Source: Solilutibacter silvestris (GTDB lineage Bacteria > Pseudomonadota > Gammaproteobacteria > Xanthomonadales > Xanthomonadaceae). Taken from it: 64,000 bases of DNA. The translations under genes and the position numbers were made by a program. The stretch spans positions 1-64,000 of the forward strand of contig NZ_NPZB01000002.1 in the NCBI RefSeq assembly GCF_002895945.1, in the 5' to 3' direction. The notes under the pieces were generated by a model that was given only the letters and a program-made list of their open reading frames with translations, did not search any database and was not told the DNA's origin. Positions 1 through 14,085 of the stretch are shown in pieces. Every line of letters begins with the position of its first letter. Position 1 is the stretch's first letter.

Positions 1-2
1 AC

Positions 3-101
3 TACATCGAGATGTTCTACAACCCGATCAGACGACATGGTTCCGCTGGCGACCTGTCACCTGTAGAGTTCGAAAGGCGCTATGCGCAGAGCGGCAACTG
101 A
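3..101 (+). pseudogene. IS3-family transposase orfB, C-terminal end only
   Basis: The frame reads YIEMFYNPIRRHGSAGDLSP and ends QSGN-stop. This is the usual C-terminus of the IS3-family OrfB DDE transposase (the YN..R.H....SP.EFE segment). The rest lies beyond the left edge, so I cannot tell whether the whole gene is intact. The following bases (about 102-135) read like the terminal inverted repeat of such an element. Confidence 0.75.
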
Positions 102-161
102 GTGTCTATGAAACTCTGGGCGGTCCAAAGTTCTTTATCCTTAACAGGCAAGGAGAACTCC

Positions 162-425
162 ATGAAGAAGCGTTTCACCGACGAGCAAATCATCTGATCC
201 TGCGCGAAGCCGAGACAGGCGCGCTGACGATCAAGGCGCCGTGGAAGAAGCACAACACCACCGATCAGACGTTTTTTCGCTGGCGCAACAAGTTCGGCGG
301 TCGGGATGTGCCGGATGGCCGCCGGCTGATAGATCTGGAATCGGAGAACAGTCGCCTAAGCGGCTGGTGGCCGAACAGATGCTGGTGATCGACGGAATGA
401 AGGATATCGTCCGAAAAAAGACAAC
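162..425 (+). pseudogene. IS3-family transposase orfA, decayed
   Basis: The ATG at 162 follows a good AGGAG site and starts MKKRFTDEQII, the typical start of an IS3-family OrfA helix-turn-helix protein, but a stop comes at once. The reading continues in another frame (ILREAETGALTIKA...FFRWRNKFGG) and a third (LVAEQMLVIDGMKDIVRKK, the end of OrfA). At least two frameshifts and one stop are present, and no orfB follows. It is a remnant from a second IS3 copy beside the one at the window edge. Confidence 0.75.
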
Positions 426-1180
426 TCCGCCGGAACTCCACCGCCGCTTCAAAAAACTCATCGAGCTCGGTTATTTCACTGAAGGGGACAGCACCTGTCC
501 CAGCGTGGTTAGATTCGTTTCTATGTGGTGGTCGATATGCGGGAACAACAGCAGTAGGTAACCATTGTCAATTTTTTCGCTCTGCGAGCGGTGCTGGGCC
601 CATTTCAATCGTCAGAGCCGTTGTTCCATCTACTGTGAGAATCAAAACGCACTGACCGTCGATTTTCAGTGACGACGACCGTGCCGGGGTAGCTAAGTAT
701 CCGACCGACATGTTAGTTGGTCTGCTCGAATGTAAAGACGCCTCGCACCTTGATGCCTTCTTGTCCTCCGGGCCAGGACCTCGTCGTATCTCGGCCACAT
801 GGGGGCTCGTTTGCCCAAGCATTGAATTCGGAAGAGGCCATCACTGAATTCAAGCGTGTCAAACGAGACGTGACCTTGATGGACGCGCGTATCTTCCGGG
901 AATTAGCGGCACGGGAATGCTCATGGAATTGAGCATGTAAGCGGCGGTGCTTGGGTGGGTTGTAGATAGCGTTGGCGTAATGAAGAGCGCCGCCGCCAAT
1001 TCGTCAGGCCTCCGGCTAGAAAGGTGTGGCTCACCGGGCATGTTGCGGTTTCGCCTCATTCAAGACACCAGCGCCCAGACAGTTCGCCGCGGTCAGTGAC
1101 GGTCTGCCCCGCTGCAGCGGCGCGCTGCCTGAGATTCAGATATGCCTATGTGTCTTGTCGTAGCCTTAGGCAGGAACGCA
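426..1180. other. Gene-poor spacer, no recognisable gene
   Basis: About 750 bases between the IS3 remnant and the six-gene operon. Open frames exist on both strands but none has recognisable protein motifs or a convincing ribosome site. A short hairpin, GGGACAG-CAC-CTGTCCC, lies at 485-501 without a following T-run. I see nothing else I can support. Confidence 0.4.
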
Positions 1181-1217
1181 GTACAAGGTACTATCTAAGT
1201 ACATTAAAACGCAGTAC
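1181..1217 (+). promoter_or_regulatory. Cluster of four GTAC half-sites, probable RHH operator
   Basis: GTAC occurs four times in 37 bases (1181, 1188, 1199, 1214). The first two form the inverted repeat GTACAAGGTAC, and the last two are direct repeats of AGTACATT. The cluster ends 10 bases before the start codon of a ribbon-helix-helix gene. Such proteins usually bind tandem short palindromes and repress their own operons. The assignment is inference from position and repeat structure. Confidence 0.5.
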
Positions 1218-1226
1218 ATTTCTTTC

Positions 1227-1421
1227 ATGCCAAGGGGACGCCCCAAAACCAAGACCACGACCATGACGCTTCGGGTGAGCCCGGGGCTGAAGGCCGCTGC
1301 CGAACAGGCCGCGCATTTGGACCATCGCAGCCTCACGGGCCTGATCGAGGTCTTGATCCTCAACCACTGCAAGAACCAGGACATCCCTGTTAGCGACCCA
1401 ATGAAGGAGACCAGCACATGA
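1227..1421 (+). CDS. Small ribbon-helix-helix DNA-binding protein, likely operon regulator
   Basis: A 64-residue protein. After a basic N-terminus (PRGRPKTKTTTMTLRVSP) comes a beta-strand with the alternating TMTLRV pattern and then two helices (about 20-33 and 36-48), the layout of the MetJ/Arc/CopG fold. It probably binds the GTAC repeat cluster just upstream and represses the operon. Its stop overlaps the ATG of the NADAR gene by 4 bases, so the two are translationally coupled. In toxin-antitoxin modules such proteins are often antitoxins, and that reading stays open here. No strong Shine-Dalgarno site is seen before 1227. Confidence 0.65.
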   Translation: MPRGRPKTKTTTMTLRVSPGLKAAAEQAAHLDHRSLTGLIEVLILNHCKNQDIPVSDPMKETST

Positions 1422-1999
1422 CCCGAACTGCGGCATCGCAGAAGCCGAAGAAGGCCGCCAGCAAACAGGCTGAGATACTCTTCTATCGATCGAACGAAAA
1501 GCCCTACGGGGCCTTCAGCAATCTATTTCGGCGCTCGATGGTCTTTGAAGGGCGCGAATTCCCCACCGCCGAGCACGCCTACCAAGCCGGCAAGGCGAGG
1601 AAAGAGTCGGTGCGCGAATGGATTCTAAGCGCACCTACGCCCTCCTTGGTGGCGATGGCAGCACATGGTCTCTACACTTGGGATATCAATCCGAACTGGT
1701 CGAAAACAAAGTTCGGTAGGATGCGAGAGGTACTGAGGGCGAAATTCACCCAGCATGAGGATCTGAAGGCGCTGTTGCTTGCCACGGGCGATGCACGACT
1801 CGTGGAAGCTGGCCGCACGGACAATCTCGTCAATCGAACATGGGGCGAAGTCAATGGGAAAGGACAGAACATGCTTGGAGTTCTCTTGATGGAGGTGCGT
1901 GAAGAGCTCCGCAGCCATGCCAAGTTGCCGGTCAAAGCCACCAGCAAGAAGAGCAAACCCTCCACTCGCGCTCGCGATCCCCTGCGAGCGGTGGCCTAG
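1418..1999 (+). CDS. NADAR-domain N-glycosidase (YbiA-like)
   Basis: 193 residues, of which about 20-165 form a NADAR domain: FYRSNEKPYGAFSNLF at 22-37, the conserved E52-H53-A-Y55 of the AEHAYQAGKA motif, W88/W94, and the C-terminal NGKGQNMLGVLLMEVR block. The family hydrolyses N-glycosidic bonds of riboside compounds, and some members remove ADP-ribose from guanine in DNA as antidotes to DarT1 toxins. A basic tail follows (170-193). No DarT-like gene is seen here. The start overlaps the upstream RHH gene, and the SIS-HAD gene starts 8 bases downstream. Substrate unknown. A role in nucleotide or ADP-ribose turnover within the operon is inferred. Confidence 0.85.
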   Translation: MTRTAASQKPKKAASKQAEILFYRSNEKPYGAFSNLFRRSMVFEGREFPTAEHAYQAGKARKESVREWILSAPTPSLVAMAAHGLYTWDINPNWSKTKFGRMREVLRAKFTQHEDLKALLLATGDARLVEAGRTDNLVNRTWGEVNGKGQNMLGVLLMEVREELRSHAKLPVKATSKKSKPSTRARDPLRAVA

Positions 2000-2007
2000 T
2001 CACATAG

Positions 2008-3960
2008 ATGCGGATTAGTCGTTACCAGACTGAGTTGGACCAGCTTTCGGCCACCTACTCCGCGGCCATGGGGGCAGACGTATCGCGCCTGAAGGAAGCC
2101 ATCGCGGGGGCGAGTGAGTCGAGCATCATCGGTGTGGGCTCTGGCGGCTCCTTTACGGTCGCATCGCTCCTGTGCAATTTGCACGAGACCTACACCGGCC
2201 GCGTGTCTCGCCCTTCGACACCGCTGGAGATCATCTGCAACCCGACGCTTGCCTCGTCAAGCCCCGTGTTCCTGATCTCGGCCGAGGGCAAGAACCCCGA
2301 TATTACCGAAGCGCTAGAGCGCGCAAGGCATCACAGCGCCCGACAGGTTCACGTCTTGACCAACCGGAATGTGAGCCCATTGATGGATGGGGTGTCGCAA
2401 CTGTTCGACGTCAGCGCACACACCTTTGAGCTGCAAGAGAAGGACGGTTATCTCGCCACTAACAGTCTCTTGCTCGATGCGGTGCTGGTGGCGCGTGCCT
2501 ACAACGAGCTTGATGGCAGCGCAGATGCACTGCCAGCGACCATGGACGAGCTTCGATTGGGTAGCCAAACCATTTCACAATGGATCCAATCGGCAGCCAG
2601 CTTCGTAGACGCGGCCACACAGCGCGGCGCGATCGTGGTGACCTATTCGCCGTTGCTGCACCCCATCGCCGCTGATCTGGAGTCGAAACTTTCCGAGGGC
2701 GCGCTGCTCCACTGCCAGTTGGCTGATCTGCGTTCCTTTGCTCATGGACGGCATCTCTGGTTGGCCGAACGTCCCGGAGACATTGCGATCTTGGCCTTGA
2801 TAGAGCCGTCCTTGGGCGGGCTCTGGAACAAGATGAGCGCGCTGTTTCCCAAAGAGGTACCGATGTACGCCATGCCCCTGCAGGGCGCGTCGCCACGCGA
2901 CCTGATCGCAGGGCTCATTGGTCAGATGCATCTGGTGCAGGCCATTGCAGGCAAGCTGGGCAAGGATCCGGGTCGACCGGAGGTGCCCCAATTTGGCCGT
3001 GAAATTTACTACATAGACTTGCCCGAGGTTATCCCGCCTCCCCGCGAGCGAGTTTCCGCGGCAGAGCAATCCAAATATGACGCGCTCGGTGCGCGATGGC
3101 CTTCGCAACGGCGGCGTAGCGGGATGGCGCGCGCTCGCGATGCGTTCATTGGCTCCCTTGCACAGCAGGATTTCCGCGCGGTAGTCTTCGACTACGACGG
3201 CACCTTGACTGCTTCGCAGCGCAAGACTGCCCCCCCCTCGGCACCTGTGGTCAACCACATCAAGCGCCTCGTGGAAGCAGGGGTCTTCGTCGGTATTGCC
3301 TCCGGTCGCGGGGACTCCATCCAAGAGGAACTGGCCAAGGTGCTTTCGATCCAGATATTGGAGAAGCTGTATTTAGGACTCTACAACGGTGGTTGGATCG
3401 GTACGGCGGCGACGGCCATGAGTGTGCCAACCGGCACAGTGGAATTCCTTAGTCACGTTACCCGTATTGCCCGGAAACTGAAGTCCCTCGGTGTGCCGAT
3501 CGAGCGCATCAAACCCACCCATCCGTATCAGGTCAGCATTCGCTTCAGGGACGGACTGCCTACGGACCAAATGTGGTTCGTAGTTGCCGATGCCTTGCGC
3601 CAAGCGGGCCTAACGACTGGCACGCTCTTTCGCAGCAAGCATTCAGTCGACGTACTGGCACCCGGGGTGAGCAAATCAGGGCTCATTGCGCACATCATCC
3701 AGCAGGAAAAGATCGATCCTCATCAGATTCTTACGGTGGGTGACCAGGGGGCTTGGCCTGGTAACGATGTTTCTCTGCTTGAACACCGCTTCTCGCTGAG
3801 CGTGGACATGCCGTCCCGCAGATTGGATCGGGGATGGAAGCTCGCTCCAGGCCACAAGCGCGACGTCGATGCAACGATTTGGTACCTAGACCGATTCCAG
3901 ACGGGTGATAAGGGATGGTTCAAGGTCTGGCTTTCCCACGAACCAGCAACCGATGAGTAG
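2008..3960 (+). CDS. SIS (phosphosugar-binding) - HAD phosphatase fusion protein
   Basis: 650 residues in two parts. Residues about 1-340 resemble a double SIS sugar-isomerase domain: VGSGGSFTVASLL near 43-55, and a second half with the ESKLSEGALLHC...FAHGRH pattern (about 225-250) typical of phosphosugar isomerases. Residues about 388-620 are a Cof-type HAD hydrolase: nucleophile D395 and acid D397 in VVFDYDGT, IASGRG after it, a lysine in the GVSKSGLI stretch, and D579/D587 in GDQGAWPGND. All HAD catalytic residues are present. The expected activity is handling of a phosphorylated sugar or nucleotide-sugar, with dephosphorylation in the same chain. The neighbours (NADAR, PRTase) point to ribose-phosphate chemistry. 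The exact substrate cannot be read from sequence. Confidence 0.75.
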   Translation: MRISRYQTELDQLSATYSAAMGADVSRLKEAIAGASESSIIGVGSGGSFTVASLLCNLHETYTGRVSRPSTPLEIICNPTLASSSPVFLISAEGKNPDITEALERARHHSARQVHVLTNRNVSPLMDGVSQLFDVSAHTFELQEKDGYLATNSLLLDAVLVARAYNELDGSADALPATMDELRLGSQTISQWIQSAASFVDAATQRGAIVVTYSPLLHPIAADLESKLSEGALLHCQLADLRSFAHGRHLWLAERPGDIAILALIEPSLGGLWNKMSALFPKEVPMYAMPLQGASPRDLIAGLIGQMHLVQAIAGKLGKDPGRPEVPQFGREIYYIDLPEVIPPPRERVSAAEQSKYDALGARWPSQRRRSGMARARDAFIGSLAQQDFRAVVFDYDGTLTASQRKTAPPSAPVVNHIKRLVEAGVFVGIASGRGDSIQEELAKVLSIQILEKLYLGLYNGGWIGTAATAMSVPTGTVEFLSHVTRIARKLKSLGVPIERIKPTHPYQVSIRFRDGLPTDQMWFVVADALRQAGLTTGTLFRSKHSVDVLAPGVSKSGLIAHIIQQEKIDPHQILTVGDQGAWPGNDVSLLEHRFSLSVDMPSRRLDRGWKLAPGHKRDVDATIWYLDRFQTGDKGWFKVWLSHEPATDE

Positions 3961-3962
3961 CC

Positions 3963-5066
3963 ATGCAGGATCTCAATGCAGCAGAGCTGTTGGCACGGGT
4001 AATGGGATGGCAGGATCAAGAGCCCGTCCGAGATCATGTGCCTGAACTGCAGTTGCTCGCTTTTTTCAAGTACGACCAGTACCAGCGGTTCGGGCCAGGT
4101 CGCCGGTTCATCGAAAGTTTAGCGCTATGGCTCAATCGCCTTGATGTAGAGGACCGGCAGGCGGCGCTTACATTGGTAAAGGACAAGCTCGTCTTCTTCT
4201 CGGACCGAGAAATATCCCACTTGGTCGACATGGTCTACCCAGATATCATCGTCCAGGAGCGCCTGCGACTGGTTGCCGAAGAGCACGATATACCGACTCA
4301 CGAGGTCGGCAGGCTGAGCGGGCACCGGCGGTTCAAGGAGCTGAGACTGAAATCCCTCTACTTGGGGTTGAGCGATGGCGCTCGCACCAACGAATTGCGC
4401 CGTGCCAGCAACCATCAAATCAGCAACGAGCAGATCTGGCAGGCGTACGAACTAGGCGAGCAGAAGTCTGCCTCCATGCGCAAGGATCTCAAGACTGAAC
4501 TTGGGAAAGCCGGCTTTGAGGAGGCGCAGCCACATTTTAATCTCATCTGGCTGCTCGACGATTTTTCGGGAAGCGGCAACACCTACATCCGCTACGACAG
4601 CGAGGAGAAGAGTTATGGTGGAAAGCTACAAAAGATATACGACCAGCTTCATCGGGGTGGGCTAATCGACCCTACCCACTATGAAGTGTTTCTGGTGTTG
4701 TACGTGGCCACACGGCAAGCCATTGATCACATCGAGTACTGGTGTGAACGCTTTACCTCCGAACGAGGATTCAAGCCGCTGCAGTTGCGTGTGCTCTGTC
4801 CCCTGGAACGTAATCTTGCCCTCACTCAAGCCCCGGCCGGGACGCTTTCCGCGCTACTGGCCAAGGAAAAGTACTTTGATCCGGAAGTCGATGATGAGCA
4901 CATGAAGGTGGGCGGCTCCGATGGCCGCATGGGCTTTGCCAATTGTGCGTTGCCGGTCGTGCTGTCCCACAACACCCCTAACAACTCGATCTACCTGCTC
5001 TGGGGACCTGAGCACTTAAAGTATTCGGGCTTATTCCCCCGCGTGGCAAGGCACAGAGATTTCTGA
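3963..5066 (+). CDS. Phosphoribosyltransferase-like protein (PRTase-CE type)
   Basis: 367 residues. The clearest motif is LLDDFSGSGNT (D199-D200 to T207), which matches the PRPP-binding loop of type I phosphoribosyltransferases (two acidic residues, then a glycine-rich turn ending in T). The segment after it (VFLVLYVATRQAIDHIE, about 238-255) fits the next strand and helix. Residues 1-190 are helical with no known motif. I recall a conflict-system class, PRTase-CE, with this arrangement, but cannot check the match. It starts 2 bases after the SIS-HAD stop, and its stop overlaps the next ATG by one base. It may transfer or release ribose-phosphate from a base, or act as a sensor. Confidence 0.65.
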   Translation: MQDLNAAELLARVMGWQDQEPVRDHVPELQLLAFFKYDQYQRFGPGRRFIESLALWLNRLDVEDRQAALTLVKDKLVFFSDREISHLVDMVYPDIIVQERLRLVAEEHDIPTHEVGRLSGHRRFKELRLKSLYLGLSDGARTNELRRASNHQISNEQIWQAYELGEQKSASMRKDLKTELGKAGFEEAQPHFNLIWLLDDFSGSGNTYIRYDSEEKSYGGKLQKIYDQLHRGGLIDPTHYEVFLVLYVATRQAIDHIEYWCERFTSERGFKPLQLRVLCPLERNLALTQAPAGTLSALLAKEKYFDPEVDDEHMKVGGSDGRMGFANCALPVVLSHNTPNNSIYLLWGPEHLKYSGLFPRVARHRDF

Positions 5067-6973
5067 TGGCATACAACGTAAATCCCTTCTTGGAGCGCCG
5101 GTCGGAGCGGACGACCTCGGATCAGGAATTTGCGCTGGTCTTCTCACCAAAGATTCTCGAGAAGCTTTCAGGTGAAGCCTTCAAGGGCGGGCTGCATGTT
5201 TTCCGTAGCGCACCCGGCGGTGGCAAGACCACGATTCTTCGCGCGTTTACTCCCAGCGTTCTTCGCAGCTTCTGGCGTGGTAAGGGTGCCAATGAATTGA
5301 AGGAATCCTTCCCCCTATTTGTCGAGAAAGGCGTTCTCGACGATCTGGAAGGTCCTCAACTGCTTGGGGTGCTCATCTCTTGTGCGTCTGGGTATGCGGA
5401 TCTTCCCCCTGGCGCAGCCATTGACGAAGGCCCGTTCCGTGCTCTGCTGGATTGCCGCGTGGTACTGCGTACCATTCGGAGTCTGGGTGCGTTTCTCGGA
5501 TTGGGAGTCGAAGAGTCGTTAGAGGCCATCCAGCTTGAGTACGACGATGGTGCTCAGGATCTTCAAGGCATTCCAAAACTCACTTCAGCTAGCGCATTAG
5601 CAAAGTGGGCCGAGACGCAGGAAAAACGCATTTACGCCGAGCTGGATGCGTTCTCCGGACGAAACCCGCAAGCGTTACCTTCGAGCAGCCGCTTCGAAAG
5701 CGTGCTCTGGCTTCAGTCAGTCAAGTTCCTTCGTGATGGCGTGGCGGTGGGTGGTAATCGTCTATTAATGATCGATGACCTACACCGACTTCGCCGCAAA
5801 CAGCGCGAGTTGCTGATCGACGAGTTGACCGTTCAACGCCCGCAGATCCCCGTTTGGCTCGCCATGCGAACGGTAGTGCTTGAAGAGTCGCTTCTTTCGC
5901 AAGGCGCGCGAACAGGCAGGGACATCCAGGAGTACTCGCTTGAAGAGCTGTGGGGAGGATTGAAGGGCGGTCATCAGTTCATACCCTTTGCGCTGAATGT
6001 TTTGGACCGGCGGATGAATCGCCAAGTGGCGGTGACCGGCAACTTCTCGCAACGCCTGAGAGAGCAACTCGAACCCGAAGAAATCCGGAAATTCATCCAG
6101 CCTGGAATCGATACCTTCCGAGCCGCAACCCAGCCGTATGAGAAGACTGAGCGCTACAGCGAGTGGATCGCTCGGGCGGAGAAGAAGTCTGCGGACCAGA
6201 CAGTTGACACGTTGCTGGAGCTGTTCGTCACGCGGATTCTCATGGCCCGCGATGCCGGCAAGAAGCAAATGAGCTTCGATCTGGTCCTGCCAGCAGAGGA
6301 GATTGACGACAAGGACAGCTCAGCCTTGCGTGGAGCGGCCGAAATCCAATGCCATGAAGAGCTTGGGCTACCGTATTACTACGGCCTTGAGCGCCTGTGC
6401 ACCATGGCGACCTGTAACGTTGAGGAGCTGCTATCGATGGCAGCCGCTCTCTACGATGGCATCGTTGCCAGCCAAGTTCTGAGAAAGCGTAGCCCGGAAC
6501 TATCTCCTGTCGATCAGGAGAAGATTCTTAGCGATGCCGCGGCGCGGCGTCTCAAATTCGTTCCCAAGCACCATATGGAGGGAACACGAGCTCAGAAGCT
6601 CATTACCTCTATCGGCGGTTACTGCCGCGAACGGACCTTCCTGCCCAACGCCCCCTATGCGCCGGGTGTGACCGGTGTGAGGTTGTCGCAAACGGAGATG
6701 GAGAAGTTGCAGAGCAAGGTGCTGGGGGAACATGGTGGCCTGCTGAAGCGGGTCCTTTCCGAATGTGTGGCGGAAAACCTGCTCATTTTGCGTCTTAGCT
6801 CGGCAAGCACTGCGCGGGATGCAGGTTCCATCTTCTACCTCAACCGCACGCTGTGCGCCAACTTCGGCCTGCCCTTGCAAATGGGGGGATGGCAAGACGT
6901 GGCCTGCCTGGACTTGATTGACTGGATGCTGCGGGGCTGGAAACCGCGGCAGCGACTTGCGATGGGGAGCTAG
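5066..6973 (+). CDS. AAA+/ORC-CDC6-like P-loop ATPase
   Basis: 635 residues. Walker A is APGGGKTT at 49-56, directly after the strand LHVFRS. Walker B is LLMIDD at 233-238, followed by LHRL. The region 270-320 (PVWLAMRTVVLEES) fits the sensor strand of an AAA/STAND-like ATPase. The C-terminal half (about 370-635) is mostly helical and probably carries winged-helix or scaffold regions. N-terminal NPF...R residues resemble those of ORC-CDC6-type ATPases in bacterial conflict systems. It is the only energy-using protein in the operon and a likely regulator or assembly platform. It is joined by one overlapping base to the PRTase gene and by 2 bases to the next gene. Confidence 0.65.
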   Translation: MAYNVNPFLERRSERTTSDQEFALVFSPKILEKLSGEAFKGGLHVFRSAPGGGKTTILRAFTPSVLRSFWRGKGANELKESFPLFVEKGVLDDLEGPQLLGVLISCASGYADLPPGAAIDEGPFRALLDCRVVLRTIRSLGAFLGLGVEESLEAIQLEYDDGAQDLQGIPKLTSASALAKWAETQEKRIYAELDAFSGRNPQALPSSSRFESVLWLQSVKFLRDGVAVGGNRLLMIDDLHRLRRKQRELLIDELTVQRPQIPVWLAMRTVVLEESLLSQGARTGRDIQEYSLEELWGGLKGGHQFIPFALNVLDRRMNRQVAVTGNFSQRLREQLEPEEIRKFIQPGIDTFRAATQPYEKTERYSEWIARAEKKSADQTVDTLLELFVTRILMARDAGKKQMSFDLVLPAEEIDDKDSSALRGAAEIQCHEELGLPYYYGLERLCTMATCNVEELLSMAAALYDGIVASQVLRKRSPELSPVDQEKILSDAAARRLKFVPKHHMEGTRAQKLITSIGGYCRERTFLPNAPYAPGVTGVRLSQTEMEKLQSKVLGEHGGLLKRVLSECVAENLLILRLSSASTARDAGSIFYLNRTLCANFGLPLQMGGWQDVACLDLIDWMLRGWKPRQRLAMGS

Positions 6974-6975
6974 GG

Positions 6976-8151
6976 ATGCTGTGGGATCAATACGTTTTCC
7001 GGCGCGGGTCGGAGGCCAATGAACTCTGGGAGCACATGTTCGATAATCGCCCTGTGCGATTGCTGTACATAGGCGGAAGTGGCTTCGACGTCAGGGCGCA
7101 AGTCGTCATGCGTGAATGCATTGGTAGCATTCTCGAATCGAGCGCAACGGTCGAATCTGCCTGTCTGGCGCTGATCAACTTCTCCAACTACAGCCTGGAC
7201 GAAGACCTAGAACAGCTGACCGTAGAAAACGGCCAAAAGCTGACAGACATATTTTCGACGATAGGCAATGTCGAGCATGTTCGATTCGGAATTTCAGAAG
7301 AGGGAGAAGAATTAAGCTCCAGCAGCGCCCTGCGCGCAGGTAGGGATGCGATCCTGCAAATGGTGACCGATCAGACGGACATCATCCTTGATGCCAGCTC
7401 GCTGCCCAGGGTCATCTACCTAGCGCTTTTGACGAGCATTCTTCACCACTTAATCCCCGACAAGGAGGCGGAGAACGTCTTGGCCGCCGGCGGGGTCAAT
7501 TTTCAGGTGCTCGTGGCCGAAGACGCTGCCTTAGACGGGCAGATCATGGCGGAGGATCCTAGCAGTGAGATCGTCTGGGTGCCCGGCTTCTCCAGCGCCA
7601 TGCAAGCCGAAAGCGTCCAAGACTGGCCGTTGGTCTGGTTTCCGATTCTGGGCGAGCATCGGCTCAACCAATTGCAGCAGATTGTCAAAGGCAGCGACAT
7701 TCCGGGAGAGGCGGAAGTATGCCCAGTCGTGCCTCACCCTTCGCGTGATCCACGCCGGGCGGACCGCTTGCTAGTCGAGTACAAGGAGGTGCTCTTTGAG
7801 TCACGGCGCACCCCTACCAGCAATGTCCTTTACGTGCACGAAGCTCAGCCGTTCGAAGCGTATCGACAGTTGCTGGGAGCGATGAAGCGTTACCGCGAGA
7901 GCATGGCCATTCTGGGAGGCTGCCGGCTCGTGGTAACGCCGTTTGGTAGCAAGCTCATTACCCTCGGGGCCGGCTTGGCCTGCTTTGAGATGCGGCCACA
8001 GGACCTGGGTGCGCAGTACGGCGTAGCGATTCCCCATGCAGAACCCACGCGCTACGTCGTCCCTGCACAAGCCGTCAGTGCTTCCAAGCCAGACATTTGC
8101 AGCCTGCTCTTAACCGGCGCGGCTTATACCTCAGCAGAACCGGACTCTTAG
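6976..8151 (+). CDS. Protein of unknown family, last gene of the NADAR operon
   Basis: 391 residues; I do not recognise the family. The N-terminal strand-turn VRLLYIGGSGFDVRAQ (about 27-42) looks like a nucleotide-binding Rossmann start. Then TDIILDASSLPRVIYLALL (about 132-150) looks like another strand and helix with an Asp at the tip, and near the C-terminus comes LVVTPFGSKLITLGAGLACFE (about 314-334). The overall pattern of short strands ending in Gly/Ser/Asp resembles sensor folds such as CARF, but this is only an impression. It follows the ATPase gene by 2 bases and ends the operon. In conflict operons the last uncharacterised gene may be the effector or the sensor. Confidence 0.55.
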   Translation: MLWDQYVFRRGSEANELWEHMFDNRPVRLLYIGGSGFDVRAQVVMRECIGSILESSATVESACLALINFSNYSLDEDLEQLTVENGQKLTDIFSTIGNVEHVRFGISEEGEELSSSSALRAGRDAILQMVTDQTDIILDASSLPRVIYLALLTSILHHLIPDKEAENVLAAGGVNFQVLVAEDAALDGQIMAEDPSSEIVWVPGFSSAMQAESVQDWPLVWFPILGEHRLNQLQQIVKGSDIPGEAEVCPVVPHPSRDPRRADRLLVEYKEVLFESRRTPTSNVLYVHEAQPFEAYRQLLGAMKRYRESMAILGGCRLVVTPFGSKLITLGAGLACFEMRPQDLGAQYGVAIPHAEPTRYVVPAQAVSASKPDICSLLLTGAAYTSAEPDS

Positions 8152-8228
8152 ACTTATGCATGAGCAACATGCTGACTTGTTTCTTGATGCGTGTAACCGC
8201 CTGATCAGCTCAGGTCGTAATAAAGCTC

Positions 8229-8740
8229 GGAGAAATAATCTCTGTGCCACGAGGTATTCCGCCCAATGTTTTTTTGACTCGCAATGGAAAAGGGAAGCAC
8301 ATGCTCATCGGTGCTTTCAGGCGGATGGTCGGGGACTTCTCTGCGGTTAAGACTACCGATCCAGACACCGGGCGGGTCGTGCACCTCCGAAAGGAGGAGA
8401 TCGAGACTCAATGGGTATCCCAACGTGTGATCAGTTCGGATACTGGACCAACAAGGACCACCTGCGTCTGGAGATCAAACGTAAGCGGATGGACGCCAAG
8501 CTGTACGACAAAGATCTGCGTGGCTTGCTGGGAACCTCGAACGCAGAAGTAATGGGTCTTGGCAGCAGGTATCAAATCGACGCCACGATTGCCGACATCT
8601 ATCTGGTATCGCCGCGACTTGACCTAATCTGATCATCGGGCGACCGGTCCTGTACGTTGTGATCGACATGTTTAGCCGGCTTATCGTTGGAATTTACATT
8701 GGTTTGGGACGTCCGTCGTGGGTGGCTGTCAGACCGCTTC
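8229..8740 (+). pseudogene. tnsB: Tn7-type TnsB transposase remnant
   Basis: Two frames together read like the middle of a TnsB-type DDE transposase. Around 8244-8400 is PNVFLTRNGKGKHMLIGAFRRM; from 8411 comes PTCDQFGYWTNKDHLRLEIK and GSRYQIDATIADIYLVS (the first catalytic Asp region); after a stop it continues as IIGRPVLYVVIDMFSRLIVGIYIGL. The last is the second DDE strand (VIDMFSR). One frameshift and one stop break it, and both gene ends are missing. It lies just downstream of the NADAR operon, so that operon may once have been cargo of a Tn7-like element. Confidence 0.75.
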
Positions 8741-8768
8741 GCTTGTTCGCTGGAACTGACGTTGGAAT

Positions 8769-10670
8769 CTACCGTTGAGGATTAGGCTTTCTTTTGCGGG
8801 ACATTTCAGTGGTGCTCGCTCCTGGCGCGCTTGTTGCGTTCGCCGGAGAGGCGGACGCATCCATTGAAAACTCTCCGCTCCGTACTAAGTCGGCGAACAT
8901 GCCGTTCTTTTGAACGAGGAAATCAAAGGTTCCCTGCTCTGTTAACAGACCATTATCGAGCACCAAAATGACATCGGCATGACGAATGGTGGACAACCTG
9001 TGAGCAATGACAATCGTCGTCCTAGGTTTCGTCATGTTACGGAGACTTTTCTGGACATGCATCTCCGTTACAACATCTAACGCACTCGTCGCCTCATCTA
9101 AAACTAAGATCGGTGCGTTTTTCAAGAGCGCTCGAGCAATTGCTAGGCGCTGCCGTTCACCGCCAGAAAGCGAGCGGCCACGTTCAGTTACCATGGTCCC
9201 ATAGCCATCCGGCTTCATGGTCACAAATGTGTGCGCCTGCGCAGCAACCGCCGCGGCTTCCACCTCCGCGTCGCTAGCTTCCGGCCAGCCCATCCGAAGA
9301 TTGTCGGCAATCGAGCGATTGAGCAGTCCGGGTTCCTGAAAAACAACAGCCATTTGGCGGCGAAGCGATTCTCTGCTCACGTTCCGGATGTCGACCCCGT
9401 CCACAAAAATGCAACCGCGGCTGGGATCGTAAGCGCGATAAAGAAGAGACAGAGCGGTTGTCTTGCCCGATCCGGTTGCACCTACGAGTGCCACCATCTG
9501 TCCCGGCAGCACCTTGAAGCTCAGATCCTTAAGGGAATACCGAGGATCTTCACCATGCTGGGGTTCGTAGTGAAAGGACACGTTGTCAAATACGACCTCG
9601 CCACGCACGTCGTGAAGATCTGGCGCGTCTAGCCTATCCTGCTTTATTTCGCAGGTATCGAGAATAGTGAAGAATCTACCGATAGACAGGGCTTGCCTAG
9701 AAAGGTCCGAAAGGAAGTATGCCAATTGCTCCAGTCGGCCGAGCATTAGCATGGCGAATCCGACGAAACTCACGATGCCTCCGACGGTAATTTCGCCAAT
9801 TCCGTTGAGGCATACCCCCAAGGCAAATATCACAACTACAGTGAGTGTGCTCGCAGTACGCTGCGCAATCGACGAGAGCGCGAATCCGCGCAATACAGGA
9901 TATTGTACATTCAACATGTTTTCGAGCATGTTCCTAACCACTTTCATTTCACTCGCGACGCGCAAATAGCTTTGAATAACCATTACATTCGCAAAAAGAT
10001 CGCCAGCCCGATCGCCGATCCTTTTGTTCAGCTCCACAACGGCCATCTGGGCCTTGGTGTTTCGCCGAACCATGAATATGCTGAGAGCTAGGAATGAGGC
10101 CATCATTCCTAGTAACGGAATCGCCAATTTCCAGTTCAGATACAAAGTAAGCGGAATCACGACTAATACGGAGATCAAAGTACTCAAATGCGTCCGGAAA
10201 AAAGTCAGCCATACATTGAACAAAAAAGAAGTTCCTGTATGCATCGTGAGAAGTAGGCCTCCGGAATGGTTGCGATCATGGAAAGAGATCGGAAGCGAGA
10301 TGACATGTTCAATGTATTGCGCCATAACCTCCATTCGACAACGGTGCGCCAGACGGTCAGCGTGCAGGGATGAGAAAACGCCCGTCACAATGCCCGCCAC
10401 GCCGATCGCCGTCCAAAAGCCGATATTCTTCCACGCGTCGGCGGACTTTCCAGCCGATAACGCGTCAATCACTCTGCCGAAGAACCAAGGCTCGAGAAGG
10501 AAGACGGCGGCTAATCCGAGGTTCGTCAGAACGAGCAAGTACGCCAATCGTCGCTCACGCGCAAGCAGCGCCAATGCGCGGATATAAGTGCGCAGTAGAG
10601 ACGCCCGACCGTTGCGTTGACTTTCATCGCGCTTCTGCCAAGAAGTTTCTTTTAGTGTTTCTTCCGACAT
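8769..10670 (-). CDS. ABC exporter, fused permease-ATPase (NdvA/glucan-exporter-like)
   Basis: 633 residues from the ATG at 10670, chosen because GGGAG lies 7 bases upstream; an ATG at 10721 has no ribosome site. Residues about 40-320 hold six membrane helices of a type I ABC exporter. The ATPase domain has Walker A GATGSGKTT at 397-405, signature LSGGE at 501-505 and Walker B ILVLDE at 521-526, followed by the H-loop in IVIAHRLST. All are intact. Overall wording (RRLAYLLVLTNLGLAAVFLLEP, FGRVIDAL) resembles cyclic beta-1,2-glucan exporters NdvA/ChvA, but lipid or peptide export is possible. It stands alone, with no accessory gene beside it. Confidence 0.8.
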   Translation of the reverse strand: MSEETLKETSWQKRDESQRNGRASLLRTYIRALALLARERRLAYLLVLTNLGLAAVFLLEPWFFGRVIDALSAGKSADAWKNIGFWTAIGVAGIVTGVFSSLHADRLAHRCRMEVMAQYIEHVISLPISFHDRNHSGGLLLTMHTGTSFLFNVWLTFFRTHLSTLISVLVVIPLTLYLNWKLAIPLLGMMASFLALSIFMVRRNTKAQMAVVELNKRIGDRAGDLFANVMVIQSYLRVASEMKVVRNMLENMLNVQYPVLRGFALSSIAQRTASTLTVVVIFALGVCLNGIGEITVGGIVSFVGFAMLMLGRLEQLAYFLSDLSRQALSIGRFFTILDTCEIKQDRLDAPDLHDVRGEVVFDNVSFHYEPQHGEDPRYSLKDLSFKVLPGQMVALVGATGSGKTTALSLLYRAYDPSRGCIFVDGVDIRNVSRESLRRQMAVVFQEPGLLNRSIADNLRMGWPEASDAEVEAAAVAAQAHTFVTMKPDGYGTMVTERGRSLSGGERQRLAIARALLKNAPILVLDEATSALDVVTEMHVQKSLRNMTKPRTTIVIAHRLSTIRHADVILVLDNGLLTEQGTFDFLVQKNGMFADLVRSGEFSMDASASPANATSAPGASTTEMSRKRKPNPQR

Positions 10671-11168
10671 ACTTTGACTCCCGTGCGTGACACCGAATCC
10701 AAACGAGCTTGCAATGGCCAAGTGATTGATTAAAGGGTTGTCAACGCATGTTAGCCTGTCAGGCTATCGCACCGGAGGCATCCCCACGGCGAGGATCAAT
10801 CCATTAACCAATTGTATTTGGCCAATTCATGAGAGGTTTGCCTGACGGTTCTGCTGTTGGTACAGACTGAACTTTTTGGTTCTGCTACATCCTGTGCATG
10901 AAGGGGCGGTCACACTCTCTTCAGACAAACCCGATATCGAAGCCGATTCAGCACCTCCTCCGTCTTCATCGCCAATTTCTTCCCCTCACATGCATTCGTC
11001 GAAATTGATTCTTCGGATTGAGCTTTCAGCTGCGTGGCTGGCCTGGCCGAAAAGCATCAAGGATCGATCAAAAGACCGTGCCCCCTCCGGTGGTTTGGTT
11101 GGCGATGGTCGTCGAGTAACCTACGCTATCTTCGACATGAACCCTACCAACATTGGCCACCAATAAGT
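10671..11168. other. Intergenic stretch without recognisable gene
   Basis: About 500 bases between the ABC exporter and the sulfotransferase gene. One open frame on the plus strand (10876-11166, serine/proline-rich) has no recognisable motif, no clear ribosome site and is probably not coding. The exporter promoter should lie near 10,690-10,760. I see no repeat or RNA gene here. Confidence 0.35.
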
Positions 11169-12137
11169 TTAAGGTGTATCAACAGATTCGCATTCTAGTA
11201 GGAAGCCGTCGAAACTGCGAATGACTGATTCGATATCCGACGACTGCGCAACGCTGAGTTCGCGCCTCCACCCGTTGGTAAGATCGTCGAGGGAGGCATT
11301 CCATCGGCCCGGAACGGCAGTGGCGCTCGTGAGATAACTTAGTCCGGACGCGTCGTCCAGGACTGGATATCCAAGTCGGCGAAGAATGGCGGGGATGCCC
11401 GATGTAGGGTTGCGCACCAATGATTCGTAACGTTCAAGAACGATTTTGTTCCTCTTTGTCGAGAACGAATACTCCAAGAATAGTTCGGTCATCGCCCAAT
11501 ACGCGGTCACTCGCTTCAATAGACACTTCTTGTCGTAAAATTCGATTTCGCTACGCCATCTTTCGAAATATTCTGATCGGCCATCGTCAATCTCGAGAAG
11601 TTGCGCTTTTAGCGAAAGGGGTTCGAGCCATTTTCCCCAGTGCCCTCGTAGAATGCTCGCAAGCACGGATCGAGGATCTCGCCTTAAATGGATGGCTCGA
11701 ATGTCCATTATGTCGACTATGGCGTGCGCACACAGGCTTGCACGAACATCCTTTAACACTGTTCTCTGTTGGAATGATTCGGTTATATTTTTTCTCAGAT
11801 GTCTCGTCCACCTGTCCGCAACGGAAGATCTCACTGCTTTAGATAGGTAGGTGCCAAGTCGGTGGTTATTTGAGAAATTCGCGCTTGCGAAGGGCATGTG
11901 GAACAGTGACACGTCTTTGAGTCCTGTTCCGTGAGCATCTGTTTGATCCGGGGAGATTGGTTCGAAGACGGTTTTGGCGTTTAACGCGCGCGCCGAGAAC
12001 TGCTGTAGCCATGTCGTTCCGCTTCGCCAGAAGCCGGTGATCAAGAGACAGTCCTTGGGATCGATGTGATGTGCAAGCGCGCTATCTATCAAGCGCGCGA
12101 GCTCGCTTTGTGCGAGTCTTTTTTTTAAAGTGGGCAT
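11169..12137 (-). CDS. Sulfotransferase-family protein (PAPS-dependent)
   Basis: 322 residues. The N-terminal LLITGFWRSGTTWL (31-44) is the strand-loop-helix that binds the 5'-phosphosulfate of PAPS, with RSGTT at 38-42. A second block, AIHLRRDPRSVLASIL (about 150-165), has the Arg and Ser of the 3'-phosphate-binding site. The rest (Trp- and Arg-rich helices, W at 218-260) fits the Sulfotransfer family. It would transfer sulfate to a hydroxyl or amine of a sugar, lipid or small molecule. Nearby glycosyltransferases and a PPTase suggest a metabolite or surface-glycan target, but no operon link is visible. The start has a weak GGAT site. Confidence 0.8.
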   Translation of the reverse strand: MPTLKKRLAQSELARLIDSALAHHIDPKDCLLITGFWRSGTTWLQQFSARALNAKTVFEPISPDQTDAHGTGLKDVSLFHMPFASANFSNNHRLGTYLSKAVRSSVADRWTRHLRKNITESFQQRTVLKDVRASLCAHAIVDIMDIRAIHLRRDPRSVLASILRGHWGKWLEPLSLKAQLLEIDDGRSEYFERWRSEIEFYDKKCLLKRVTAYWAMTELFLEYSFSTKRNKIVLERYESLVRNPTSGIPAILRRLGYPVLDDASGLSYLTSATAVPGRWNASLDDLTNGWRRELSVAQSSDIESVIRSFDGFLLECESVDTP

Positions 12138-12527
12138 GTGTCGCGATCCTGATATCTGGTCGTGCCGAGATCGATGTCAGCCACGATGATCGTCGGGTGA
12201 CGCCTCTTCGAGTGGGCACTCCATTCGCCGTTGCTCGCCAATGCATTACATTTGTGGAGCAGCGGCGAGGATATCATAAGGCAACGCCCTTGTTCCAACC
12301 GTAGCGGATTTGTTTCGCGGGGGTTCTAGCCCATTTCCACGGACTGGTTGGATAAGAGTCTAAATGCCCAATCACGGGCATCGAGCCAGCGTTGGACGAT
12401 CGGATTGTGGAAACACTCGATCTAATCGAACATGTCCCATCTGGCTTCGGCGATAGTCAGGCAACACCTGCGATTGATCCGTCACGGGAAAGCTATGCTA
12501 TGGCAAATGAGGAGGTTTCCATCCAGC
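12138..12527. other. Divergent promoter region, no gene seen
   Basis: About 390 bases separate the minus-strand sulfotransferase from the plus-strand phosphopantetheinyl transferase. Both promoters should lie here. The plus-strand frame of the downstream gene is open back to an ATG at 12432, but the GAGGAGG site near 12,507 favours the later start. I see no other feature. Confidence 0.35.
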
Positions 12528-13247
12528 ATGTCAGCAGTCTCTACGCTAGCAGGGCTTGCCAGTGTGGAGTTGGGTGCCCACAATATGGCCCTCCCGCCGG
12601 CGTTTATCCTTCCCTTCGATGCGGCGACATTCCACGAGCAAGACTTCACTCGTTATGGAATTGCTCGACCACCCTCCATTGTACGCAGCGTGACTAAACG
12701 ACAAGCCGAATACCTTGCCGGAAGACGTGCAGCACTGGCCGCTCTTCGCGAAGCAGGCAATCATGCAACAGACTTGCCCATCCATGCCGATCGATCGCCG
12801 GCATGGCCTGCCGGATTTATCGGTAGCCTTTCGCACGCTCGCAACCTCGCGGTGGCGGTAGCGATGCGCATGAACGCCGGCGTGACCTGCGTCGGCATCG
12901 ATATTGAAGAACTCATCGCGTCCGATCAAATACCATCGGTACGAAACATGGCGGTCACTTGTGGCGAATGCGAGCACTTGGCCGCACTTGCCAACCTAAA
13001 GGGCTGGCCGTACGCACTGACCGTCGCCTTCTCCACAAAGGAAAGTTTCTACAAGGCCACAGCATCCACTATCGGTCGGATTTTCGACTTCAGGACACTG
13101 CAGATCGTGTACTGCGATCCCATCGAAGCTAGGCTTGAGGCTGAGATTGTCGATACCCTTGCACCGGCGCTGCTTGCCGGGCAACGCTATACTCTGTGCT
13201 GGATCGAAGTACGCCCGGATGTCTTGCTTACGAGTTGCGCATGGTGA
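12528..13247 (+). CDS. 4'-phosphopantetheinyl transferase (EntD/Sfp-type)
   Basis: 239 residues from the ATG at 12528, 12 bases after GAGGAGG; an in-frame ATG at 12432 would add 32 residues of little likeness to the family. Hallmarks: GSLSHA at 99-104, GIDIEE at 123-128 (metal-binding acids) and FSTKESFYKA at 168-177 (E172, K176). The RRAALAAL block at 66-73 fits the CoA-binding arginine region of EntD-type enzymes. It attaches 4'-phosphopantetheine from CoA to carrier proteins of NRPS, PKS or siderophore systems. No carrier-protein gene is in the window, so its partner lies elsewhere or outside the left edge. Confidence 0.85.
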   Translation: MSAVSTLAGLASVELGAHNMALPPAFILPFDAATFHEQDFTRYGIARPPSIVRSVTKRQAEYLAGRRAALAALREAGNHATDLPIHADRSPAWPAGFIGSLSHARNLAVAVAMRMNAGVTCVGIDIEELIASDQIPSVRNMAVTCGECEHLAALANLKGWPYALTVAFSTKESFYKATASTIGRIFDFRTLQIVYCDPIEARLEAEIVDTLAPALLAGQRYTLCWIEVRPDVLLTSCAW

Positions 13248-13499
13248 CCAGCAGAGGCGCTTTCGTGCATTGGCCTTTGAAGGCGCGATTTTACTATCAA
13301 TTTTCCGCTCACTAACGCAGGTTGGTGAAGCTTTCGGGCTTTCTTGTATGGAAACCATTACAGTTCGGCGTTATTGCTTGCCAGAGCTAGCGGCGGCGAA
13401 TCCCTCGATTCTCGAGGTACGCCTGACTCATTGATCGATGAAGGAACAACAGTTGAAGGTTAGACCAACACGTGAATCCTCCGGCGCTGCCGGACACGT

Positions 13500-14085
13500 A
13501 ACCTTTACGGCAGTCCGTTCCGCGGCTCCGAGCCGCGAGCCGCCAAGCGAACGAAACGGAGATTGATAAGTATGAGAGCTCAAATTACAACCAGTGGGAG
13601 GGCCTTTGCCACGTGGTGTTTATCCTGAAGTGTCGACGCAAGACGTTGTACGTGAGATTGCGAAAGTACTTGGAGGAAGTATTCCGACAATTGGCCGAGC
13701 AGAAGGAGAGCCGGATAGAAGATGAGCACCTGATGCCAGCCCGTCCGTATGCTATTGAAAATTCCACCGAAGCACGCAGTGTCGCAAGTGGTTGGATATA
13801 TCAAAGGAAAGTGTGCGATCCATTTGGCGCGGGCATTTGAAGATCGTTGGCGAAATTTAGTGGATCAGAGCTTTGGGTTGTAGGCTACTTTGTTTCGACG
13901 GTGGGTGGGGATGAAACAGTGATTCAGGCGCATATTCAGAATCAGGAGGCGGGAGGCAGAAGACCGCCGATTGGATCAGCTTCAATTATTGAGGTGATCA
14001 TAGTCGCCTTCAGGCGGCACACTTAATTTAATAGGGAGTACGCAACATACCGCCCGCCGCTTTGAGCGGCTCACACTCAAATGTC
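13500..14085 (+). pseudogene. tnpA: IS200/IS605-type transposase (TnpA) remnant with end hairpins
   Basis: From about 13,575 the frames read NYNQWEGLCHVVFILKCRRK, LRKYLEEVFRQLAEQKESRIEDEHLMP, then after a frameshift VVGYIKGKCAIHLARAF, and finally GYFVSTVGGDETVIQAHIQNQEA. This is the order found in IS200-type Y1 transposases, but the HUH region after EDEHLMP is damaged and at least two frames are used. A hairpin CGCGGCT-CCG-AGCCGCG lies at 13521-13537 and another, GCCGCT-TTG-AGCGGC, at 14056-14070, as expected for the structured ends of this family. Confidence 0.8.

Follow-up and report, generated by a model that had tools for sequence, protein, structure and literature searches.

The stretch of DNA analyzed here (the window: 64,000 nucleotides, positions 1 to 64,000 of contig NZ_NPZB01000002.1 from Solilutibacter silvestris) carries six plus-strand open reading frames (ORFs) between 1227 and 8151, with intergenic gaps of 2 to 8 bases and overlaps of 1 to 4 bases. 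An earlier sequence-only reading had proposed a compact six-gene operon on one strand, and the ORF positions bear this out, its start at 1181 lying 46 bases 5' of the first ATG. The six genes are as follows.

1227-1421, + strand: small ribbon-helix-helix (RHH)-like protein; TacA1, 17.4 bits, under the Pfam cut-off of 21
1418-1999, + strand: YbiA-like NADAR protein, 4-base overlap with the RHH-like ORF; PF08719, 103.6 bits against a cut-off of 35.1, E 1.7e-29
2008-3960, + strand: SIS-HAD fusion, 8-base gap after NADAR; TIGR01484, 5e-15, for the HAD-IIB part
3963-5066, + strand: phosphoribosyltransferase (PRTase) of the PRTase-CE family, 2-base gap after SIS-HAD; PF24390, 54.9 bits against a cut-off of 27, E 1.5e-14
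5066-6973, + strand: ORC-CDC6-like P-loop ATPase (ORC), 1-base overlap with the PRTase gene; PF24389, 78.1 bits against a cut-off of 27, E 8e-22
6976-8151, + strand: CARF6 protein, 2-base gap after ORC; PADLOC PDLC01910, 6e-112 over residues 1-384, in a library that sets no cut-off

Five of the earlier family labels stood in Pfam, PADLOC, and NCBIfam searches, RHH only below its cut-off and SIS only weakly by sequence, while the last protein, which had been called unknown, matches CARF6. Below, a window-type operon is one with SIS-HAD, PRTase-CE, ORC, and CARF6 genes plus accessory genes.

The PRTase also matches PADLOC PRTase_III-A (1e-17), and its residues D199, D200, and H336 to N341 are conserved in an alignment of 88 sequences. 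PRTase-CE proteins from other contexts likewise carry the acidic pair (or a T-D variant) and a G-x-PN-like ending, with single-letter exceptions. We take these to be the phosphoribosyl pyrophosphate (PRPP) loop and active-site motifs, on conservation that is only motif-like. The product, for which the structure model is confident (predicted local distance difference test score, pLDDT, of 92.5), is a predicted PRTase that would use PRPP, and a probable effector. The ORC protein has an intact P-loop (P50 to T55) that is conserved in 80 sequences. For the CARF6 protein, no Pfam family scored over its cut-off, and an identity as TylF, hinted at by Pfam below the cut-off, was set aside. Its model is also confident (pLDDT 93.0); a fold search put unrelated proteins first (transporter domains and KaiC, with low TM-scores), and weak matches to Csa3, Cap5, and Csm6 came lower down (TM 0.21 to 0.43). 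Searches of Protein Data Bank sequences with PRTase, CARF6, and ORC profiles gave no convincing match.

The SIS-HAD protein is predicted to join a sugar-phosphate isomerase-like domain to a HAD-IIB phosphatase. The SIS region is weakly recognized, by NagB-II (5e-6, well under its cut-off) and, with a family profile, by the solved SIS protein 2aml (1.3e-4). Conserved across 84 sequences are D395, D397, K556, and D579 in the HAD part and G44 to S48, E225, E230, and H246 in the SIS part, which we presume to be the respective active-site motifs.

The closest solved structure to the NADAR protein is YbiA (2b3w), and in an alignment of 41 NADARs from the operons, E52, K59, and E159 are each conserved in 98% or more. 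Catalytic roles of NADAR residues have been described (PMC11543638, PMC11125620) and are matched here by spacing and by alignment with YbiA. A glutamate in the last strand defines the YbiA family (PMC11125620); the S. silvestris protein is over the NADAR cut-off and has this residue as E159, aligned with MELRE of YbiA. YbiA-family NADARs reverse the ADP-ribosylation of guanine, and one of them acts as an antitoxin (PMC11125620). An ORF similar to the RHH-like one overlaps the NADAR start in a cluster of five loci, and the RHH-like protein is a probable autoregulator.

Recurrence and modular composition

A profile of nine PRTases gave, through one peptide pattern, 268 relatives in a collection of species genomes. 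The best 80 of these 268 loci, eight plasmid loci, and the S. silvestris locus make up a set of 89, and since most of it was chosen in this way, its counts describe close relatives. The plasmid loci are 8 of 19 PRTase-matching records, with L010, L011, and L001 (our locus numbers) left out. PRTase and ORC genes are present in 89/89 loci, and the nine loci without SIS-HAD or CARF6 (L012, L018, L034, L038, L040, L047, L082, L084, and L086) run out at or near a contig end on the side concerned, so that none of the 89 truly lacks any of the four genes SIS-HAD, PRTase, ORC, and CARF6. We called 63 loci complete, meaning that they have all four core genes and 2.5 kb on each side (about 2 kb on the left in S. 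silvestris); the presence of the four genes is therefore part of the definition and not an independent result among the 63. Accessory genes in these loci are NADAR only (20 loci), PfkB only (35), or both (8), with no locus carrying neither. NADAR, which the sequence-only reading had counted within its six-gene set, is indeed present in S. silvestris, but across the set it is rather an accessory (28 of 63).

Carriers belong to Pseudomonadota, Bacteroidota, Acidobacteriota, Planctomycetota, Chloroflexota, Cyanobacteriota, Bacillota, and others, including two archaeal groups; many of these loci come from metagenome-assembled genomes, in which contamination is possible. The flanks vary, each flank gene family occurring in at most 8 of the 89 loci, and no conserved metabolic linkage was seen among the flank gene clusters. 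Dozens of genomes without close kinship share the order of the core genes, which indicates that the operon is more than a chance assembly. The survey of co-occurrence proposed beforehand showed strong recurrence in unrelated hosts, and neither of the two outcomes named in advance as refuting, lack of co-occurrence elsewhere and linkage to ordinary metabolism, was seen. Where the sequence-only reading knew related pieces but not this exact set, the set proves to be widespread.

Among plasmid records, PRTase was found in 19, CARF6 in 18, and SIS-HAD in 18, and the PRTase search shares 17 records with each of the other two. A Rhizobium tumorigenes plasmid has an extra PRTase-ORC pair directly 3' of a full operon (L006:7938-17095). 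Within the genus, a whole copy is present in 1 of 17 genomes, and one further genome has a copy ended by a contig end, with SIS-HAD, PRTase, ORC, and CARF6 (L143:1-5274). The latter scores below the S. silvestris copy, which suggests that it was acquired separately. In the S. silvestris genome, the PRTase and NADAR searches each gave one match, in both cases the operon copy.

Rank correlations of pairwise identities between genes (the pairs are not independent, and eight near-copies were dropped here and in the PRTase tree) ranged from 0.75 to 0.80 among PRTase, ORC, and CARF6 (71 loci) and reached 0.87 between SIS-HAD and PfkB (49 loci). Correlation with the PRTase-ORC-CARF6 core was 0.47 to 0.54 for SIS-HAD and 0.28 to 0.39 for PfkB. 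NADAR gave -0.22 to -0.06 against the core and SIS-HAD (32 to 36 loci) and 0.84 against PfkB in the 12 loci carrying both. The operon appears to consist of three modules, namely, PRTase-ORC-CARF6, SIS-HAD-PfkB, and a NADAR that is exchanged separately. In the PRTase tree, in which the joins of L004, L005, L009, and L087 are unsure, the NADAR-only loci fall within one clade of 26 (24 labeled, 2 cut) with support of 100/100. NADAR is also the most conserved part of the operon, with a median identity of 0.65 between NADAR-only and two-accessory loci, against 0.40 for PRTase in the same comparison. Among 69 plasmid records with NADAR matches, all eight above 60% identity carry a window-type operon; the next stands at 53%, and the two plasmid NADARs that follow the group above 60% lie in other gene contexts. 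Taken together, the divergence pattern, the conservation, and the clade suggest that NADAR is exchanged on its own and has adapted to the operon, and that there was probably a single loss of PfkB.

In two-accessory loci, NADAR is often divergently oriented and next to a helix-turn-helix gene (L003:6940-7866, L006:3930-4816, and L060:8966-9924). The closest solved relatives of PfkB are fructokinases and other sugar kinases. By eye, the PfkB kinases of the operon (as in L005:12158-13210, L007:12134-13195, and L008:6870-7979) show a CPxCG-like knuckle about halfway along the protein and in many cases two Cys residues close to the C terminus, features that are unusual among sugar kinases.

Defense-type settings of the core families

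Searches of 398 genomes of the phylum, together with the plasmid SIS-HAD and CARF6 searches, are less biased than the 89-locus set. PF24390 had a match in 36 of the 398 genomes and was over the cut-off in 18, and all 18 neighborhoods were inspected. Five are window-type operons, that of S. silvestris included, and the 13 others lie in or beside defense-type loci. Nine of the 18 PRTase-CE genes adjoin a gene for a relative of the L135 reverse transcriptase (itself PADLOC RT_III-A, 2e-147) and are type III-A retron-like; two lie between HmaA-like and HmaB-like genes with NADAR directly 3' of PRTase; one forms a minimal PRTase-ORC-CARF6 triad without SIS-HAD, PfkB, or NADAR (L128); and one stands alone beside GajA of the Gabija system (L127). 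In the two Hma-type loci (L125:3342-12038 and L126:3339-12024), the PRTase-CE and NADAR genes are flanked by an HmaA-like helicase and an HmaB-like DUF1156 methyltransferase, an assignment that comes from a PADLOC run on L125, the layout of which L126 shares. The L125 PRTase and NADAR pass the cut-offs of the NCBIfam anti-phage models DS32_1 and DS32_2, and for DS32_2 so does the NADAR of the other Hma genome. The triad, with the same families in the same order as in S. silvestris, shows that PRTase, ORC, and CARF6 can exist without the accessory genes.

The SIS-HAD search of the same genomes gave six matches, the five window-type operons and a short contig with CARF6, SIS-HAD, and PfkB. PF24389 was over the cut-off in 14 of the 398: four window-type operons, the triad, two loci with HD-CE (PF24391), one with a metallophosphatase, and six others, which are a likely twin of L147 (in genome G123), a long ORC-containing protein with a start that is kinase-like by eye only (L149), and four without a recognized partner (L150 to L153). 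The HD-CE loci (L146:3672-8727 and L148:530-4421) and the metallophosphatase locus (L147:4912-9370) are sister systems that share the ORC-CARF6 module and have another enzyme in place of PRTase, which suggests that the enzyme is an exchangeable effector. One of the HD-CE/ORC/CARF6 loci sits behind a C5 cytosine methyltransferase gene.

Flank proteins were also compared with controls by using 125 of 462 deduplicated flank proteins and 125 of 195 control proteins (20 regions from 12 genomes) at a PADLOC E value of at most 1e-15; proteins of more than 1000 amino acids were excluded (13 flank, 5 control), and the flanks come from many phyla, the controls from Pseudomonadota only. The flank proteins matched 124 PADLOC families and the controls matched one (2 proteins). 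The 25 flank families listed amount to about eight kinds, some of which may share a protein: type I specificity subunit (two proteins) and MTase_I, GajA, PD-T7-1, PDC-S02, TniQ, AbiEi, and Aga_Nuclease (one each). This enrichment is supportive of a defense setting and not decisive. Carriage by phages was rejected, as 50,697 phage records gave no match.

The Csm1 model TIGR02578, the one Cas10 model that was tried, matches nothing in the S. silvestris genome, and a role as Csm1-linked (type III CRISPR) CARF effector was rejected on this basis. The genome also has no RVT_1 match at an E value of at most 0.001, and a search for SMODS (the CD-NTase of CBASS) gave a single match, on another contig, of 21.7 bits against a cut-off of 26.5. 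Given these results, the CARF6 ligand may be made by the operon itself.

Several known systems share parts with the operon. DS32 (NF053875 and NF053876) is a PRTase-like and NADAR anti-phage pair, just as PRTase-CE and NADAR adjoin here; it differs in that the S. silvestris operon adds ORC, CARF6, and SIS-HAD, and in L125 the DS32-type pair sits inside Hma genes. From its name alone, it is probably the DS-32 of DefensePredictor (PMC13092281); the main text of that paper mentions NADAR-domain proteins, and PRTase in the legend of a figure on validated systems, and the number DS-32 was not found in it. Type III-A retrons have a PRTase of the same Pfam family, and membership was rejected for lack of an RVT_1 match in the S. 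silvestris genome. In the DarT1-NADAR and YarT-YbiA toxin-antitoxin pairs (PMC11543638, PMC11125620), NADAR likewise stands next to a proposed base modifier; the six proteins, which were the ones searched and not the rest of the genome, lack a Pfam match to any ADP-ribosyltransferase family, DarT type included, and have a PRTase instead, so this membership was rejected as well. Ter-linked signaling has PRTase and HAD enzymes in common with the operon, the six proteins of which match no Ter family; PRTases in Ter systems have been argued to produce, with HAD enzymes, a nucleoside signal (PMC7824862). The parts and core families are already cataloged in Pfam and PADLOC. For the enlarged operon, word searches of literature listings found no account, with the surveys of CARF and of immune components, the likeliest places for one, lying outside their scope.

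Candidate mechanism and alternatives

Our best explanation, which we hold tentatively, is that the operon forms a mobile conflict system, directed against invaders and made up of three modules, with an ORC/CARF6-gated PRTase and a NADAR eraser, as gene content, conserved likely catalytic residues, modularity, and defense-type context would suggest. The ORC-CDC6-like ATPase would probably recognize invader DNA or a stalled state, and CARF6 would probably bind a small nucleotide-like ligand and, jointly with the ATPase, license the PRTase. The latter would most likely move phosphoribosyl from PRPP onto the base of a nucleotide or of a nucleic acid, and the phosphoribosylated base could then harm the invader or halt the cell. 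NADAR, which would cleave ribosyl-base bonds, could thereby remove the PRTase mark, and SIS-HAD (with PfkB in many relatives) might handle a sugar phosphate and clear or recycle it. As NADAR stands beside PRTase-CE in two settings (window-type operons and the Hma/DS32 loci) and YbiA NADARs reverse base ribosylation, a writer and its eraser are the simplest reading. With more doubt than confidence, we suggest a PRPP-driven immune chemistry in which the ORC/CARF6-controlled PRTase phosphoribosylates a nucleobase, either in nucleic acid or in an antiviral or signaling nucleotide with a sugar from SIS-HAD/PfkB, and NADAR erases the product. Such a chemistry would be a counterpart to ADP-ribosylation toxin systems, with PRPP replacing NAD. 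The proposal that this is a nucleotide- and sugar-phosphate-centered conflict system has gained from context, namely, the 13 PRTase-CE loci outside window-type operons, the DS32 pair, and the flanks, while its function, including the biochemical steps, the trigger, the product or mark, and the relation of writing to erasing, is what we infer.

Several observations weigh against the conflict-system reading. Although uracil PRTases top the list in the PRTase fold search, no match reached an E value of 0.001 or less. The S. silvestris proteins fall outside DS32 by score (NADAR at 65.4 bits against 240, PRTase with no match at an E value of at most 1), which leaves DS32 as a functional analogy, and NADAR is absent from 35 of the 63 complete loci and therefore cannot be an obligatory antitoxin. 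Finally, on a Streptomyces scopuliridis linear plasmid, a PRTase-CE gene accompanied by a gene with a weak CARF6 match lies among inositol-monophosphatase-type, PhyH, and PGI genes (L010:6183-15389), a biosynthesis-like cluster, found in a single record, that advises caution toward the conflict-system reading. Also near this pair are a phosphoenolpyruvate (PEP) mutase gene and an HMGL-like gene, which give the region the look of a phosphonate-type biosynthetic cluster.

The main alternative, somewhat unlikely in our estimate, is that the operon synthesizes a nucleotide-like molecule, with a sugar from SIS-HAD/PfkB and a base attached by the PRTase, that serves as a messenger read by CARF6 or as a replication poison, with NADAR degrading the product or its precursor. 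SIS-HAD and PfkB, both of sugar-phosphate families, diverge together, the genome lacks a Csm1 match and an over-cut-off SMODS match, leaving room for a home-made CARF6 ligand, and the nucleoside signal argued for PRTase and HAD in Ter systems (PMC7824862) would be a precedent. The Streptomyces pair, adjoining a sugar-type phosphatase, PGI, and the PEP mutase cluster, points the same way, but it is one record with a weak CARF6 match, and the triad and the retron-type loci do without SIS-HAD, PfkB, and NADAR altogether. A non-defense role in the repair or salvage of nucleotides or nucleic acids damaged under stress seems improbable. It would suit the action of NADAR on ribosyl-base bonds, an ORC-CDC6-type ATPase that could bind DNA, and the E. 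coli ybiA gene, which shares a LexA-controlled operon with the gene for a predicted DNA-binding protein that is also predicted to act as a phosphoribosyltransferase (PMC11125620); it fits poorly with the patchy, mobile distribution within the genus (one whole copy in 17 genomes and one contig-end copy) and with the presence of related PRTase-CE genes in Hma loci and beside retron-type reverse transcriptases. Ordinary salvage of sugars or of NAD/riboflavin as the task of the operon is more improbable still: four products come from sugar-phosphate or nucleotide enzyme families, and YbiA-type NADARs have been linked with riboflavin intermediates (PMC11125620, PMC11543638), but the constant linkage with the ORC-CDC6-like ATPase and CARF6, flank clusters without conserved metabolic neighbors, and PADLOC families that are commoner in flanks than in controls all speak for something else.

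If the conflict-system reading is correct, the operon, which probably helps its hosts against viruses or other invaders through unusual sugar-phosphate and nucleotide chemistry, joins three questions: the role of the PRTase in type III-A retrons, the targets of YbiA NADARs outside toxin-antitoxin pairs, and the ligand that CARF6 senses where a Csm1-type Cas10 is absent. Naturally occurring forms that have or lack NADAR, PfkB, or SIS-HAD, down to the three-gene triad, would be built-in controls for the role of each part.

Flanking DNA

Decayed transposons had been proposed on both sides of the operon, and this holds for two stretches.

129-419, strand not applicable: IS3-family transposase-like DNA remnant, left flank (blastn)
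8570-8723, strand not applicable: Mu-type transposase gene-like DNA fragment, right flank (blastn)

The right-hand fragment matches at about 70 to 73%, and several plasmids carry the matching DNA annotated as the C-terminal domain of a Mu transposase; a comparison of the right flank with 20 relatives matched its own genome only. A scan for promoters and terminators gave no excess over shuffled sequence, and no tRNA genes were found within positions 1 to 14000. The left-hand remnant is 77% identical to Burkholderia plasmids, one match being annotated as an IS3 family transposase, and 68% identical to an IS1403-type element. Besides this remnant, the left flank (1-1180) is matched at 80 to 90% by 1680 plasmid records, mostly from Klebsiella and outside the matches listed.

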